Positions 2,664 through 24,841 of a DNA stretch of 24,841 nt are shown in pieces. Where the stretch lies: IMG/VR virus record IMGVR_UViG_3300042150_000006, positions 1 through 24,841 of that record; one strand, given 5' to 3'. The notes under the pieces are model-generated. The model did not search any database and was not told the origin of the DNA. It saw nothing but the letters and a program-made list of their open reading frames with translations. Position numbers and translations under genes: made by a program. The DNA comes from a virus. Within the stretch, counting starts at the first letter, position 1. Each line of letters starts with the position of its first letter.

Positions 2664-5086
2664 TTATCACAGCCGACGCGAGCGGGGTCGGGCCCGCGGT
2701 CGCCCAGGCTACGGCAGCCGTCGAATCGTCTGCCGACCAGATCGCCGCAGCGCAGGCCAAGGCCACCGCCGCCACGAAGGCGCTTACGGAAGCGCAGGTT
2801 CAGTTGGGAGCCGCCGCTGAGGGTGGCAACGCCCAGGCCGCGGCGATCATCCAGCAATACGCGCAAGCGAGTACGATGGCCACCGCCGCGGTCCAGCAGC
2901 TCACCGCCAGCGAGGAAGCAAACACCGCCGCAACTCTTTCGAACGCTGCCGCCCAGCGCGTCGACACCGTGGCAACCTACAGCCACTCCGAGGCGATGGA
3001 GGCGGCGAAGGTGAGCATGGGGGCTATGACCGGCTCGGCTTACATGATGGAGACGGGCCTGGCAAAAGTTGCCGCGGGATCCTCCGTGGTTGGCCCGATG
3101 CTGGCCGCCATGGTCCCGGTGGCAATCTTCGCCGCGGGCGTGTTCCTGCTTTACGACCTTGGCGAGGCGCTTTACAAGGCCTTCGACATGGGCGGCGAGG
3201 GCGCGCGCGAGTTCGAGCAGAAGCTCTCCTCGCTCGACGGATCCTATCGCACCCTGATTGACGAAACCTCGCTCGAGGCCGACAAGATCGAGGCGGCCAA
3301 CGCGAAGCTCGAGCACAAGCCCAACCCCAACGCCATCAAAGAGGCGATCGACGACGCTCTGGTCGAAGCCGACAAAATGAACGCCAAGCTACAGGGGCTG
3401 ATCGACAAGGAGGAGTCGCTTCTGAAGATGCAGTCGCTGGCCGGCTCAACGCTGCAGCGTATGACGAGTACCACCGGGACGCGCCAGGAACAAGTCGACC
3501 TCGAGCAGCACGCGCTTTGGATGGAGAAGGCGGTCGCGCTCGAGGGTCAGCTCGCCGAGGCGAAAAGTTTCACGGCCGTGGAAGAGAAGAAGCTCCTGGA
3601 TCTGCACGCCCAGCAGACCATGAGCGTCGATCCGACCCCCCTTAACAACGAAGTCACCGCGACCGAACTCCTGATCGCGGACACGAAGAAGGAAACCGCG
3701 GCCATCGAGGAGCAGATGCGCCTGCGCGATGCCCAGCAGGAGCACGAAAAACTGACCGGCGCCGGAAAGACTGGTGGTGGCAGGGCTGCCTCCGACAATC
3801 TTCCCGAGCAGATCGCCCGCGCTCAGATCGAGGCCGCGCATGCCGACGATGCCCAGCTTGGCGTCGAGCAGCAGATCATCGCGGCGATGGACAAACAAAT
3901 CGAGCTCAATAACCTCAAGGCCACGACCTCAAAGGAAGGCACGGCGGCCGAACGGGAGACCCTTCGTGTGCTGGAGAACCAGGTGGCCCTTTCGCAGGCC
4001 AAGGAAAAGATCGCCGCGCTCGGCAAGGAGCAGATGAATGCCACTTTTGAAGCCCAGCAGAAGGAGGACGAGGCCGCCCGCCGGCGCGCCGAAGAGCAGA
4101 CCCGGGTCGAAGTCGAAAACGCCAACCGCACCCGGGAAGAGCAGATCAACGCAGCCCGTGAGACCGCGGCGGCTTTGATTGAGGCGGCCGACCAGGAATT
4201 CGAACGCACCCAGGTCGAGATCCGCGGCCAGGAAGAGCTCGGCATTATTTCGCACCGGGTGGCCGAGCAGCGGTTGCTCGACGCGCTGAAGCTCCGCGAG
4301 GCCACGACCCAGGGCGCGCTCAAGACCGAGCAGGGGCTTTTTAACCCGATCGCTGGTGAAAAGGAAGCCATCGAGTACAAAAAACTCGAAGATCAGATGA
4401 CGAAGGAGGCGCAGCGCGCCGCGCTCGAACGGGAACGTATCGTTCAGCAGGAAGCGACCAAAATGGAGCAGGCCTACAAAAAGGCCGCGAACGAGTTCAA
4501 TGCCGACTTCACCCGGGCCTTCAATGAGTGGGCGACCAAGTCGCAGACGGCAGGCCAGGCGTTCGGTCATATGCTCGGCGACATGGAACTGCAGGTTGTG
4601 GATTTCGTGGCGAGGTGGATTCTCCAGAAGGCAGAAATGTGGGCGATGGATAAGCTCCTGCAGGTCTCGGGGATGGCCACCCAGGTTGCAGTCCAGAAGA
4701 CCGCAAACGTCGCAATGGTCTCGAGCGACGCCGGTGTTGCCGCGGCGGGAGCGATGGCGTACTACTCCGCGATCAATCCGCCCGAGGCCCCGGCGATGGC
4801 TGCGCTGCAGTTCGCCGAGACCATGGCTTACGCCGTCATGGACACCGGCGGCATGATGCCGCACATGGGCTTCGCTTTTAACACCTCGGGGAGCGCCGAG
4901 CGGGTGCTCTCGCCATCGCAAACCTCGAACTTCGAAAGTCTGGTCAACAACGGGGGCAGCCGAGTCGCGCATCTCCACCAGACCAACAACTACGGGGGTG
5001 CGCCCACCAAGGAGATGCACGAGGCACAGACCGCGCATACCATCAACCGGCTCAAGTCCATGCTTCGCCCGGAGGCCTTCGCATGA
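2642..5086 (+). CDS. tail tape measure protein
   Basis: An 814-residue protein that sets tail length and is fed into the host during DNA entry. It is dominated by long Ala/Glu/Lys/Gln-rich helices (about 10-110 and 270-650) with coiled-coil character. One strongly hydrophobic segment lies at about 147-172 (VVGPMLAAMVPVAIFAAGVF) and an Ala/Met-rich weakly hydrophobic C-terminal region at about 670-760. Near the C-terminus SAERVLSPSQTSNF resembles the GPEVLSPSQ-type end of lambda gpH-like proteins. At about 0.15 nm per residue the tail would be roughly 120 nm long. The ATG at 2642 follows GGAGCGGG and lies within the end of the chaperone extension; its stop overlaps the next gene as ATGA. Confidence 0.9.
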   Translation: MADELRVIITADASGVGPAVAQATAAVESSADQIAAAQAKATAATKALTEAQVQLGAAAEGGNAQAAAIIQQYAQASTMATAAVQQLTASEEANTAATLSNAAAQRVDTVATYSHSEAMEAAKVSMGAMTGSAYMMETGLAKVAAGSSVVGPMLAAMVPVAIFAAGVFLLYDLGEALYKAFDMGGEGAREFEQKLSSLDGSYRTLIDETSLEADKIEAANAKLEHKPNPNAIKEAIDDALVEADKMNAKLQGLIDKEESLLKMQSLAGSTLQRMTSTTGTRQEQVDLEQHALWMEKAVALEGQLAEAKSFTAVEEKKLLDLHAQQTMSVDPTPLNNEVTATELLIADTKKETAAIEEQMRLRDAQQEHEKLTGAGKTGGGRAASDNLPEQIARAQIEAAHADDAQLGVEQQIIAAMDKQIELNNLKATTSKEGTAAERETLRVLENQVALSQAKEKIAALGKEQMNATFEAQQKEDEAARRRAEEQTRVEVENANRTREEQINAARETAAALIEAADQEFERTQVEIRGQEELGIISHRVAEQRLLDALKLREATTQGALKTEQGLFNPIAGEKEAIEYKKLEDQMTKEAQRAALERERIVQQEATKMEQAYKKAANEFNADFTRAFNEWATKSQTAGQAFGHMLGDMELQVVDFVARWILQKAEMWAMDKLLQVSGMATQVAVQKTANVAMVSSDAGVAAAGAMAYYSAINPPEAPAMAALQFAETMAYAVMDTGGMMPHMGFAFNTSGSAERVLSPSQTSNFESLVNNGGSRVAHLHQTNNYGGAPTKEMHEAQTAHTINRLKSMLRPEAFA

Positions 5087-15961: not shown

Positions 15962-16531
15962 TCAGCCCCACTGCTCGGCCATTGCGTCAGCAATGCCTGG
16001 GTCGGTGATTGAGCGCCGTTGCTGTCGGGTAAGACCGTTCTTGATTCCAGGAGATTCATAATGCACCCTCGGTACTCTTCCATCGACGATGTTGGACGGC
16101 TGGAGAAGCGGCAAACCTTTCAGCCAAAGACACGTCCCTTTGATCTCGCCATGCCCGAACTGCCAAGGCTGGATGATCTGATCTGGCTTGCGCCAACGTG
16201 TAGACATCAGGCCGATGGGATTTTCGATGGCGATCTTCGGAATATCGGCATTGGCGAAAAGCATGAACAGGTCTATCGCCTGTATTTGCTCGTCCTGCCG
16301 ATCCTTCCACCATCTAGCGCCGCTAACGGTCAAGTGGGTGCAAGGCGGATGGGCAATCATCATGTCCCACTGGTAGGTGTACGGAAGCAAGGCATCCCAA
16401 GCGTCACCTACGATATGGAACTCGCTCCCATCCGCAGCCGGAAGAATATCAAGGGACCACGCATCATGGCCCCGCTCACGAAAGGCGCGTCTGACCGCGC
16501 CAGAGAACTCACACGCGATCAGGATTTTCAA
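15962..16531 (-). CDS. compact cytosine-5 DNA methyltransferase-like protein
   Basis: A 189-residue protein when started at TTG 16531, which is preceded by an AG-rich stretch (GGAAAGAGAAG); an in-frame ATG at 16603 would add 24 unlikely basic residues. The Rossmann start KILIACEFSGAVRRAF (2-17), the PPC loop in IAHPPCTHLTVSG (59-71, Cys64) and ENP (103-105) match motifs I, IV and VI of cytosine-5 methyltransferases. The product is half the usual length and has no clear target recognition domain. Similar short forms are common in phages and could protect phage DNA. It is the last gene of the - strand block. Confidence 0.6.
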   Translation of the reverse strand: MKILIACEFSGAVRRAFRERGHDAWSLDILPAADGSEFHIVGDAWDALLPYTYQWDMMIAHPPCTHLTVSGARWWKDRQDEQIQAIDLFMLFANADIPKIAIENPIGLMSTRWRKPDQIIQPWQFGHGEIKGTCLWLKGLPLLQPSNIVDGRVPRVHYESPGIKNGLTRQQRRSITDPGIADAMAEQWG

Positions 16532-16640
16532 GTTTCTTCTCTTTCCGCTTCCGTTTCCCGGCTGCTTTGCTCTTCGGTTTTGGCTTATAGGCCAGTACAA
16601 CATCGGTTATCTTGTCCAACACTTCGGGCGTTTCTTTCAT
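16509..16640 (-). CDS. 43-aa Lys/Arg-rich small protein
   Basis: ATG at 16640 opens a 43-codon frame: an acidic/hydrophobic start (ETPEVLDKITDVVLAY) followed by a strongly basic tail (KPKPKSKAAGKRKRKEKK). AGAGG lies about 8 bases upstream. The ATG overlaps the stop of the transposase fragment (ATGA), and the end overlaps the methyltransferase start by 23 bases. The basic tail suggests nucleic acid binding. It may have travelled with the transposase remnant as a downstream companion gene; this is an inference to test. Confidence 0.5.
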   Translation of the reverse strand: MKETPEVLDKITDVVLAYKPKPKSKAAGKRKRKEKKLENPDRV

Positions 16641-22753: not shown

Positions 22754-23167
22754 TTATGTGGAAACTGTGGAAGGCTCAGGCTTAACTACTCGCCGGGCTC
22801 CTTCGCGCGGCCCGCGCTTGGGTTGGCTCATGATCCGGATCCGCTCGAGCAGGTCGGCTGGCTGGCATTCGCGCAACACTGCGATGGCCTCCGGAGGGCA
22901 GCTTTCGGCTCTATCAACCAGCAACAGCACGGGAACATCGGGGCGCGCCCGTTTGAGCCGCGGGACCAACCACGCGCCGTCGACCACATGCGGGCAATCG
23001 TTCACTAAAACCAGGTCTATGCTCTGCGGTGCGATATAGGCCTTGAGCGCCTCGGCGGTGTTCCTGGCGGCGATGACTCTGTAAGCGTAAGTCACCAGCA
23101 GAAACCGACGCTCCATAAGCGTTTGCTCATCCTGATCAACCAAAAGAATAACGCGTTTCGGCCTCAT
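22754..23167 (-). CDS. CheY-like receiver domain protein, probably degenerate
   Basis: A 137-residue protein from ATG 23167, overlapping the previous stop as ATGA. The sequence follows the receiver fold: KRVILLVDQDEQTLMERRFL (4-23, acidic D11, D13, E14), YRVIAARNTAEALKAY (29-44), IDLVLVNDCPHVVDGAWLV (50-68, candidate phosphoacceptor D57 next to N56) and PDVPVLLLVD (76-85). The loop after D57 is one residue short, the conserved Thr/Ser is absent, and the conserved Lys near the end is not seen. There is no output domain, only a basic Pro/Arg tail. It may act by protein-protein contact. Confidence 0.6.
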   Translation of the reverse strand: MRPKRVILLVDQDEQTLMERRFLLVTYAYRVIAARNTAEALKAYIAPQSIDLVLVNDCPHVVDGAWLVPRLKRARPDVPVLLLVDRAESCPPEAIAVLRECQPADLLERIRIMSQPKRGPREGARRVVKPEPSTVST

Positions 23168-23507: not shown

Positions 23508-23735
23508 TCAGTTCAGCAGCCGGCCGACGCACTCGACCGATACCAGCCTGGCTGCCTTCATGGTGACGTAGTCACTCGAATCGGATAGCTGCGAGGCGAT
23601 GAAACTAGCGATCGAGCAGTCGTCGGGCGCGCGGAAATGGAAGTACTCGACCTTGTTGCTGATGGTCAGTTTGGCGCGCCACAGGTGCGTTAGCTCGGGT
23701 GACGGGTTCGGTGGAGGGTTCTTACCCACAGTCAT
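23508..23735 (-). CDS. hypothetical small protein
   Basis: A 75-residue protein with a Pro/Asn-rich start (GKNPPPNPSPELTHLWRA) and a beta/alpha body (KVEYFHFRAPDDCSIASFIA). ATG 23735 has AAGGAG almost touching it; GTG two codons later (23729) has better spacing and could be the true start. It is preceded by the 133-base gap with GGGTAG-type repeats. Not recognised. Confidence 0.5.
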   Translation of the reverse strand: MTVGKNPPPNPSPELTHLWRAKLTISNKVEYFHFRAPDDCSIASFIASQLSDSSDYVTMKAARLVSVECVGRLLN

Positions 23736-23757
23736 TCTCCTTCGTCGGCGGCATGGT

Positions 23758-23863
23758 CTTCTACCCTACCCGGTTTTACCGTGAATCTCCAACACTACCC
23801 ACCGCCTTGATCCCTAAATGGTTTAGTTCGATCTCTGGCCCTTGCTTCTACCCAGATTTACCG
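23758..23863. repeat. imperfect repeats in the SSB-downstream gap
   Basis: CTTCTACCCTACCCGGTTTT followed by ACCG (from 23758) and CTTCTACCCAGATTTACCG (23845-23863) are related copies in the same orientation about 85 bases apart. The core CTACCC occurs at further sites between them (CTACCC near 23795). The stretch 23736-23868 has no gene on either strand that I can support. It could be an operator, iteron set or part of an origin. Confidence 0.45.
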
Positions 23864-23868
23864 GAGCC

Positions 23869-24543
23869 TCAAAACGGGATGTCGTCGTCCGAGATCTCGG
23901 GGTTCATGCGATCTTCTGGCGGCTCGGTCTGGTCCCAGGCATCGGGCGCCTCGGGCTTGCCTTCGGGCTCGCCGGCCCCAGGCGCCGGCTCTTCGAAGAT
24001 CTGCCCATCGATCTTGCTGCGCAGCCAGCCGGGGAGTAGTTGGTAGGTCGACGTGTTCTCGGGCGTGTAAAGGAGCGCCGTGCCCTCGCAGATGATGGCC
24101 TTTGGGTCGATGCCCTTCGGAACTGGCCCGATGCCGGAAATGTTCGCGTAGGTTCGTTTCTCTTTTTTCGTGTGCATGACCATCAGCATGCATGGGCATC
24201 CGATGACAGTTCCAATATCGAACTTCGCGGCTTCCTCATCGGAAAATTCCAGGCCGCGCCAGGAGGCCAGCAAGTGTCGCAGGTTGGCCTTTTCGTTCAT
24301 GGACGCGGTGTAATCCTGGCCGATGAGGCGCGGCGCGTTCACCTTTTTGCCGTCCTTTTCGAACTGGTAGCGTTCGTTGGGCAGCTGAAACCGCAGGTAG
24401 ACTTTGGGCTTTGGGTCGGGGAAACGGCCGGAGCCTGGCTGGATGCCGAGCCACACGATCATGTCGCAGACGGCGATGTGGGAGCCGGCTGGCACCGGCT
24501 CGATTTCGATGGATGTTTTCACGGGAAGCGTCCAGGGTGACAT
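23869..24543 (-). CDS. single-stranded DNA-binding-like protein with SSB-type acidic tip
   Basis: A 224-residue protein starting at ATG 24543, 1 base or less after the upstream stop, with GAGG about 6 bases ahead. The body (about 1-160: VYLRFQLPNERYQFEKDGKK, NEKANLRHLLASWRG and TYANISGIGPVPKG) does not look like a bacterial SSB but fits a phage OB-fold replication protein. A Pro/Glu-rich linker (about 180-212) leads to EISDDDIPF, identical at its end to the E. coli SSB tip that binds SSB-partner proteins. It probably coats ssDNA and recruits host replication and repair enzymes. Confidence 0.65.
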   Translation of the reverse strand: MSPWTLPVKTSIEIEPVPAGSHIAVCDMIVWLGIQPGSGRFPDPKPKVYLRFQLPNERYQFEKDGKKVNAPRLIGQDYTASMNEKANLRHLLASWRGLEFSDEEAAKFDIGTVIGCPCMLMVMHTKKEKRTYANISGIGPVPKGIDPKAIICEGTALLYTPENTSTYQLLPGWLRSKIDGQIFEEPAPGAGEPEGKPEAPDAWDQTEPPEDRMNPEISDDDIPF

Positions 24544-24841
24544 CTAAACCTCTTCGCTTTCTAAATCGTCTTTGATGCATTCCAATACGGAGGCGGGAAG
24601 GCTTTCAAGTTCGGCGTAGCTGAGCCGTGACCACCATGCCCAGCGGTCGGCGTCGCTGAGCCCTGACCACAATGCCCAGCGGTCGGCGTCGCTGAGCCCT
24701 GACCACCATGCCCAGCGGTCGGCGTCGCTGAGCCCTGACCACCATGCCCAGCGGTCGGCATAGCTGAGCCCTGACCACAATGCCCTGCGGTCGGCGTCGC
24801 TGAGCCGTGACCACCATGCCCAGCGGTCGGCGTCGCTGAGC
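24544..24841 (-). CDS. Trp-rich 12-residue tandem repeat protein (5' end beyond window)
   Basis: The frame is open to the window edge and ends in TAG at 24544, immediately before the SSB-like ATG. It contains at least six copies of a 12-residue unit with consensus LS(D/Y)ADRWA(W/L)WSG. A non-repeat C-terminus follows (ELESLPASVLECIKDDLESE), acidic at the end. A TTG at 24780 could be an internal start, but repeats continue upstream, so the real start is probably outside. Each unit has Trp at three fixed places, suggesting a solenoid or amphipathic stack. Other frames through the repeat are also open because 36 is divisible by three; this frame is preferred for its sensible C-terminus and tight link to the next gene. 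Not recognised. Confidence 0.55.
   Translation of the reverse strand, partial: LSDADRWAWWSRLSDADRRALWSGLSYADRWAWWSGLSDADRWAWWSGLSDADRWALWSGLSDADRWAWWSRLSYAELESLPASVLECIKDDLESEEV
24613..24841. repeat. 36-bp tandem repeat array
   Basis: Six full units begin at 24613, 24649, 24685, 24721, 24757 and 24793, with a partial seventh at 24829 that continues past the window. Units differ at few positions (for example GTC/GTA/ATA near the start of the unit, CCACC/CCACA, CCCAG/CCCTG). There are no spacers, so it is not a CRISPR array. It lies in the coding region of the Trp-rich protein. Confidence 0.9.

Follow-up and report, generated by a model that had tools for sequence, protein, structure and literature searches.

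A phage gene of Trp-rich 12-residue tandem repeats, predicted to encode a short-helix solenoid in an accessory cassette

The repeat gene at the window's end

The window, the whole 24,841-nt stretch of DNA analysed, belongs to a bacterial virus known solely from environmental DNA. Its minus strand carries, at nt 24544–24840, the C-terminal part (98 residues plus the stop codon) of a repeat-protein gene. The frame, read from nt 24840 to 24544, is open right to the contig end, where the 5′ end of the gene is lost. Within it lies a 36-bp tandem array on the same strand, nt 24611–24841, which TRF reports at 6.4 copies with 93% matches and a score of 406. Listing of the units gives six full 12-residue units, LS(D/Y)ADR(W/R)A(W/L)WS(G/R), and one degenerate capping unit, in agreement with the original prediction of six or more. 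The tandem repeat is real and well beyond chance. The consensus first proposed holds in its overall pattern, and is refined by the occurrence of W/R also at position 7 and of G/R also at position 12.

The array runs into a C-terminal cap (nt 24547–24624, minus strand), composed of the degenerate unit LSYAELESLPAS followed by VLECIKDDLESEEV, for which helices are predicted at residues 194–198 and 202–214 of the intact protein. The acidic tail noted earlier at this end is present in the window but is not conserved, the corresponding end being KKDLESRSI in a second lineage (L003, below). The stop codon TAG (nt 24546–24544) directly abuts the ATG at nt 24543 of an SSB-like gene, leaving 0 bases between the two genes and not the single base originally reported.

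Intact gene and lineages

Five IMG/VR contigs carry the repeat besides the window. One of them, G001 (lineage L002), matches the window over its full length at 99.9% identity. Extension to the 5′ end had been proposed at the outset, and this near-identical phage supplies the complete gene: a product of 217 residues with an N-terminal cap (MTKAKLVAAIHKLL), 14 full units and a C-terminal cap. The window fragment is 98% identical to its C-terminus. The second lineage, L003, shows about 77–86% DNA identity in most of the longer aligned segments, and its gene encodes 97 residues with 4 full units. The third, L004, is a 58.8-kb contig with at least 8 units behind MKRKLVGEIKQLL; it has few other genes in common, at about 40% amino-acid identity, and is otherwise mostly a different phage. 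The comparison of repeat number among related phages, also suggested at the outset, thus gives 4, at least 8 and 14 full units. The N-terminal cap is present in three lineages and the C-terminal cap in two.

The remaining two contigs, L005 and L006, come from the window's own phage; they cover its 5′ side and are broken in the array, which is the break point of four of the six known contigs. Nucleotides 1–127 of the window overlap exactly with the L006 contig (IMGVR_UViG_3300042150_000003, nt 16512–16638), whose opposite end sits in the array and which joins both ends of G001. Therefore the phage genome seems to be a circle of about 41.5 kb, and the window contig seems to have broken at the array. 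The order of the units may be partly misassembled in the metagenome contigs.

Most of the 28 differences between the window and G001 fall in nt 23697–23914 (and 23114–23116); the longer stretch takes in the C-terminal tail of the SSB-like gene and the sequence just downstream. The clustering suggests that nt 23697–23914 are a recombined block. Two of the 28 lie inside the 231-bp array, both at already variable positions, and repeat misassembly can produce such differences.

The 36-bp unit contains no stop codon in any same-strand frame, and hence all three frames are open through the array. In the frame chosen here, an ATG follows the upstream stop by 3 bp in L002 and L003, and wherever the sequence extends far enough, which is the case for two lineages, the stop abuts the ATG of the following gene. 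The unique caps are conserved across lineages in this frame, and second codon positions carry the fewest differences. The combination of ATG, unique termini and abutting stop is seen in only one of the three open frames, which we take as the putatively expressed one.

No match to the repeat protein was found in the deposited phage records, and two scans of the genomes of 84,980 bacterial and archaeal species yielded no relative. Plasmid matches were rejected as low-complexity; the one with the best E-value, in Rhodococcus opacus, is antisense to its annotated gene. The Rfam search matched nothing, and a promoter scan around the intact gene found none. The repeat protein is a real, rare and new family of a known architectural kind.

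The cassette and its SSB-like neighbor

A small gene lies 3 bp upstream of the intact repeat gene (L002 nt 4449–4640; L003 nt 4749–4955). Its product of 63–68 residues has a hydrophobic N-terminal stretch and probably spans the membrane. The C-terminus, AEIAE(L/M)HASRWMGD, is almost invariant and the remainder diverges. This C-terminal end also faintly resembles a degenerate repeat unit. Every occurrence of the small gene was found beside the repeat gene. In L004 a different gene precedes the repeat gene; two genes ahead of the array, at L004 nt 4285–4782, lies a gene for a GroES-like co-chaperonin (phrog_3188, E 9e-14).

The SSB-like gene (nt 23869–24543, minus strand) encodes 224 residues. 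It matches the NCBIfam profile NF046043, "phage replication initiation protein, NGO0469 family", at E 9e-45 and 152 bits, where the profile cut-off is 75 bits; the homologues P0007, L031 and L032 also pass the cut-off. The replication-initiation label of NGO0469 was based on weak similarities in a prophage study (PMC1931599). Four homologues, those of the window, L003, L031 and L032, end in DDDIPF, which is the C-terminal hexapeptide of SSB (PMC5872125), and the annotation of a relative in Pseudoalteromonas phage RIO-1 reads "putative ssDNA binding protein". A search by sequence gave no solved relative. The shared DDDIPF ending suggests that the downstream NGO0469-family protein is SSB-like instead of a replication initiator, as the original prediction had it.

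The linkage to SSB-like genes, expected earlier to be conserved, does not hold generally. Two other phages have the SSB-like gene and lack the repeat gene, and the L004 contig, which is cut at the array, carries the array and no SSB-like gene. As far as the present data show, the linkage appears confined to close relatives. In L032, both flanking genes are kept, with about 100 bp between them and no cassette; the gene on the cassette's other side is 53% identical to that of L003. Judged from this gene order, the repeat gene and its small neighbor are an accessory two-gene cassette placed before the SSB-like gene.

Predicted fold

AlphaFold2, run from the alignment, places one helix of 8–10 residues in each 12-residue unit. 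The model of the 217-residue protein has a mean pLDDT of 72 and a pTM of 0.49, of moderate confidence only, and that of the 97-residue protein a pLDDT of 64. When both models were compared with the PDB by Foldseek, MgtE cytosolic domains ranked first for each. These domains fill the top seven places among the PDB matches, with probabilities of 0.92–1.00 and E-values of 0.08 or worse, none reaching E ≤ 0.001; for 2zy9_A the rmsd is 2.2 across 96 columns.

The Pfam profile MgtE_N (PF03448, gathering cut-off 25.9 bits) gives 49.6 bits with the full L002 protein, a kind of score that repetition inflates, and aligns over profile positions 3–101 of 102. The L004 fragment scores 24.1 bits, just under the cut-off, and the L003 protein and the window fragment do not match the profile. 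The cut-off is thus passed by one of the four sequences. As a control, the 12 positions were shuffled in nine random ways, each applied to every unit alike. None of the nine permuted arrays matched MgtE_N, whereas the unpermuted array does; one passed the cut-off of the unrelated Pcc1 profile over a short stretch.

Since perfect repeats inflate profile scores, the sequence match to MgtE_N alone proves little. Because of this inflation and the weak Foldseek E-values, we claim the same kind of fold and not membership in the family. The profile, the helix register and the predicted fold agree, and a short-helix superhelix of the MgtE-N type is likely for the repeat protein. The earlier proposal of a solenoid is supported by the single short helix per unit and by MgtE N-domains as the best solved-structure matches; taken alone, a solenoid fold is probable.

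A fold of this type does not make the repeat protein an MgtE. The likeness to the N-domain of the MgtE Mg2+ channel lies in the short helices arranged in a superhelix. In the channel, the N-domain is followed by a CBS pair and a transmembrane channel domain, which the repeat protein lacks; the whole protein consists of 97–217 residues of repeats and caps, and no Pfam domain besides MgtE_N scores above its cut-off. Unlike MgtE_N, it is also made of Trp-rich repeats that are near-perfect and vary in number. The middle and C-terminal domains of FliG, which form a short-helix superhelix as well, ranked lower in the fold searches, with low probability, low TM-score and no sequence match. A PDB sequence search gave weak composition matches only, the viral fold library gave nothing significant, and literature on 12-residue helical repeats and the MgtE N-domain yielded nothing usable.

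Variation within the units

Five codons of the unit vary: codon 3 (D/Y/V/A), 7 (W/R), 9 (L/W), 11 (T/P) and 12 (G/R). The T/P variation at codon 11 is found only in the third lineage and G/R at codon 12 only in the first. All variants within units change the amino acid except TAT/TAC. The original prediction had read such changes as a possible sign of selection. The differences are indeed mostly amino-acid changing, but their count alone is not significant, because random changes in the unit would be nonsynonymous in 77% of cases; sets of 4–5 events that are all nonsynonymous have a P of 0.28–0.36. The nonsynonymous excess was rejected as proof of selection on this ground.

The T/A polymorphism at nucleotide 19 and the T/G polymorphism at nucleotide 26 have both alleles in all three lineages. 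Sharing at these two positions has a P of about 1e-5 under uniform random placement, in a simulation that ignores common descent. It is a stronger sign of selection than the nonsynonymous count. A target of a diversity-generating retroelement was rejected as an explanation of the variation, which is two-state (T/A, T/G, G/C) and not A-directed. In the search for a template copy outside the array, the best match was no better than in shuffled genomes, for contigs that may be incomplete.

The units are conserved far beyond their flanks. Between L002 and L003, fixed differences occur at 0 of 30 sites in the units and at 33 of 105 in the flanks (Fisher P 8e-5); between L002 and L004, the figures are 1 of 25 and 16 of 39 (P 1e-3). 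In the unique flanks of the other lineages, 31–41% of bases differ from L002. In the third lineage, codons 11–12 are altered in every unit with the frame intact. Any one of three processes could account for the unit conservation together with the shared alleles: horizontal transfer of the array, constraint at the DNA level, or maintenance of the two-state positions.

Proposed role and alternatives

Each 36-bp unit would encode a short helix and a turn, with L-S as both turn and N-cap and the helix at about positions 3–12. Stacked on one another, the units would build a superhelix of the type seen in the MgtE N-domain, closed at one end by a longer N-terminal helix (beginning with MTKAKLVAAIHKLL) and at the other by a C-terminal helix (beginning with SVLECIKDDLES). 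Unequal recombination or replication slippage may change the number of units, giving 4, at least 8 or 14, and may also shuffle the two-state positions 7, 9, 3, 12 and 11, a route that we infer. The shuffled and resized units would then offer putative binding surfaces of different lengths and faces. The gene shares a compact operon with that of the small putative membrane protein and, in two lineages, with the SSB-like gene; most likely its product would act as a scaffold or inhibitor that binds another protein. As a whole, the reading of an accessory phage alpha-solenoid that binds as a putative scaffold or inhibitor, with length and face altered by repeat recombination, is given a probability of about 0.5. 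Any particular kind of putative binding partner is doubtful.

The near identity of unit DNA in otherwise mostly unrelated phages suggests recent horizontal movement. The array may be viewed as selfish or neutral, a slippage-prone open reading frame for an amphipathic helix, spread recently between phages by recombination and serving no specific function. Its rarity (five IMG/VR contigs besides the window) and its place in an accessory cassette fit this view. However, the same two base polymorphisms recur in three lineages despite the divergence of their flanks from L002, L002 and L003 share the caps and the operon position, and the third lineage has changed codons 11–12 in all units while keeping the frame. 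An array of this kind seems somewhat unlikely.

The small upstream protein, with its hydrophobic stretch, its strongly conserved C-terminus and its occurrence solely alongside the repeat gene, raises an anti-host or membrane role for the pair, such as lysis control, superinfection exclusion or inhibition of a host membrane complex. The Trp-rich units (10–15% Trp) would suit such a role. A PADLOC search gave no match, however, and in the third lineage another gene lies upstream; a role of this type is judged unlikely.

The conservation of units over flanks, and TAT/TAC as the sole synonymous variant inside units, would also fit an array that works mainly as DNA, for example as iterons for replication beside the SSB-like or "replication initiation" gene, with the protein secondary. 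Yet the reading frame has been preserved, as have its start, stop and caps, and the variable bases other than TAT/TAC alter amino acids. Single-strand DNA and RNA folding of the array is no better than that of shuffles, no extra unit copies occur elsewhere in the genomes, and the SSB-like gene occurs in phages without the array. A mainly DNA role is improbable.

Least probable is a new class of phage modular binding protein with a repeat code as in other modular repeat binders, in which the order and number of units with two-state residues (W/R at 7, L/W at 9, plus 3, 11 and 12), reshuffled by recombination, would specify the bound target and a balanced polymorphism would be held across mostly unrelated phages; we regard this combination as very unlikely.

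E. coli tolA offers a parallel, in that an in-frame repeat tract varies in copy number between strains (PMC3477136), as it does between lineages in the repeat gene. The protein and the repeat are different, and the effect of tolA copy number was tested on stress tolerance (PMC3477136).

Assembly breaks in the array usually leave the gene truncated, which is why such genes are overlooked. The new and rare family carries an unusual two-state repeat polymorphism. With its clear caps and its naturally occurring variants of 97 and 217 residues, the protein would be a natural, almost ideal repeat protein made of a very short helical unit, and it would therefore allow a clean test of whether phages use repeat number to tune binding proteins.
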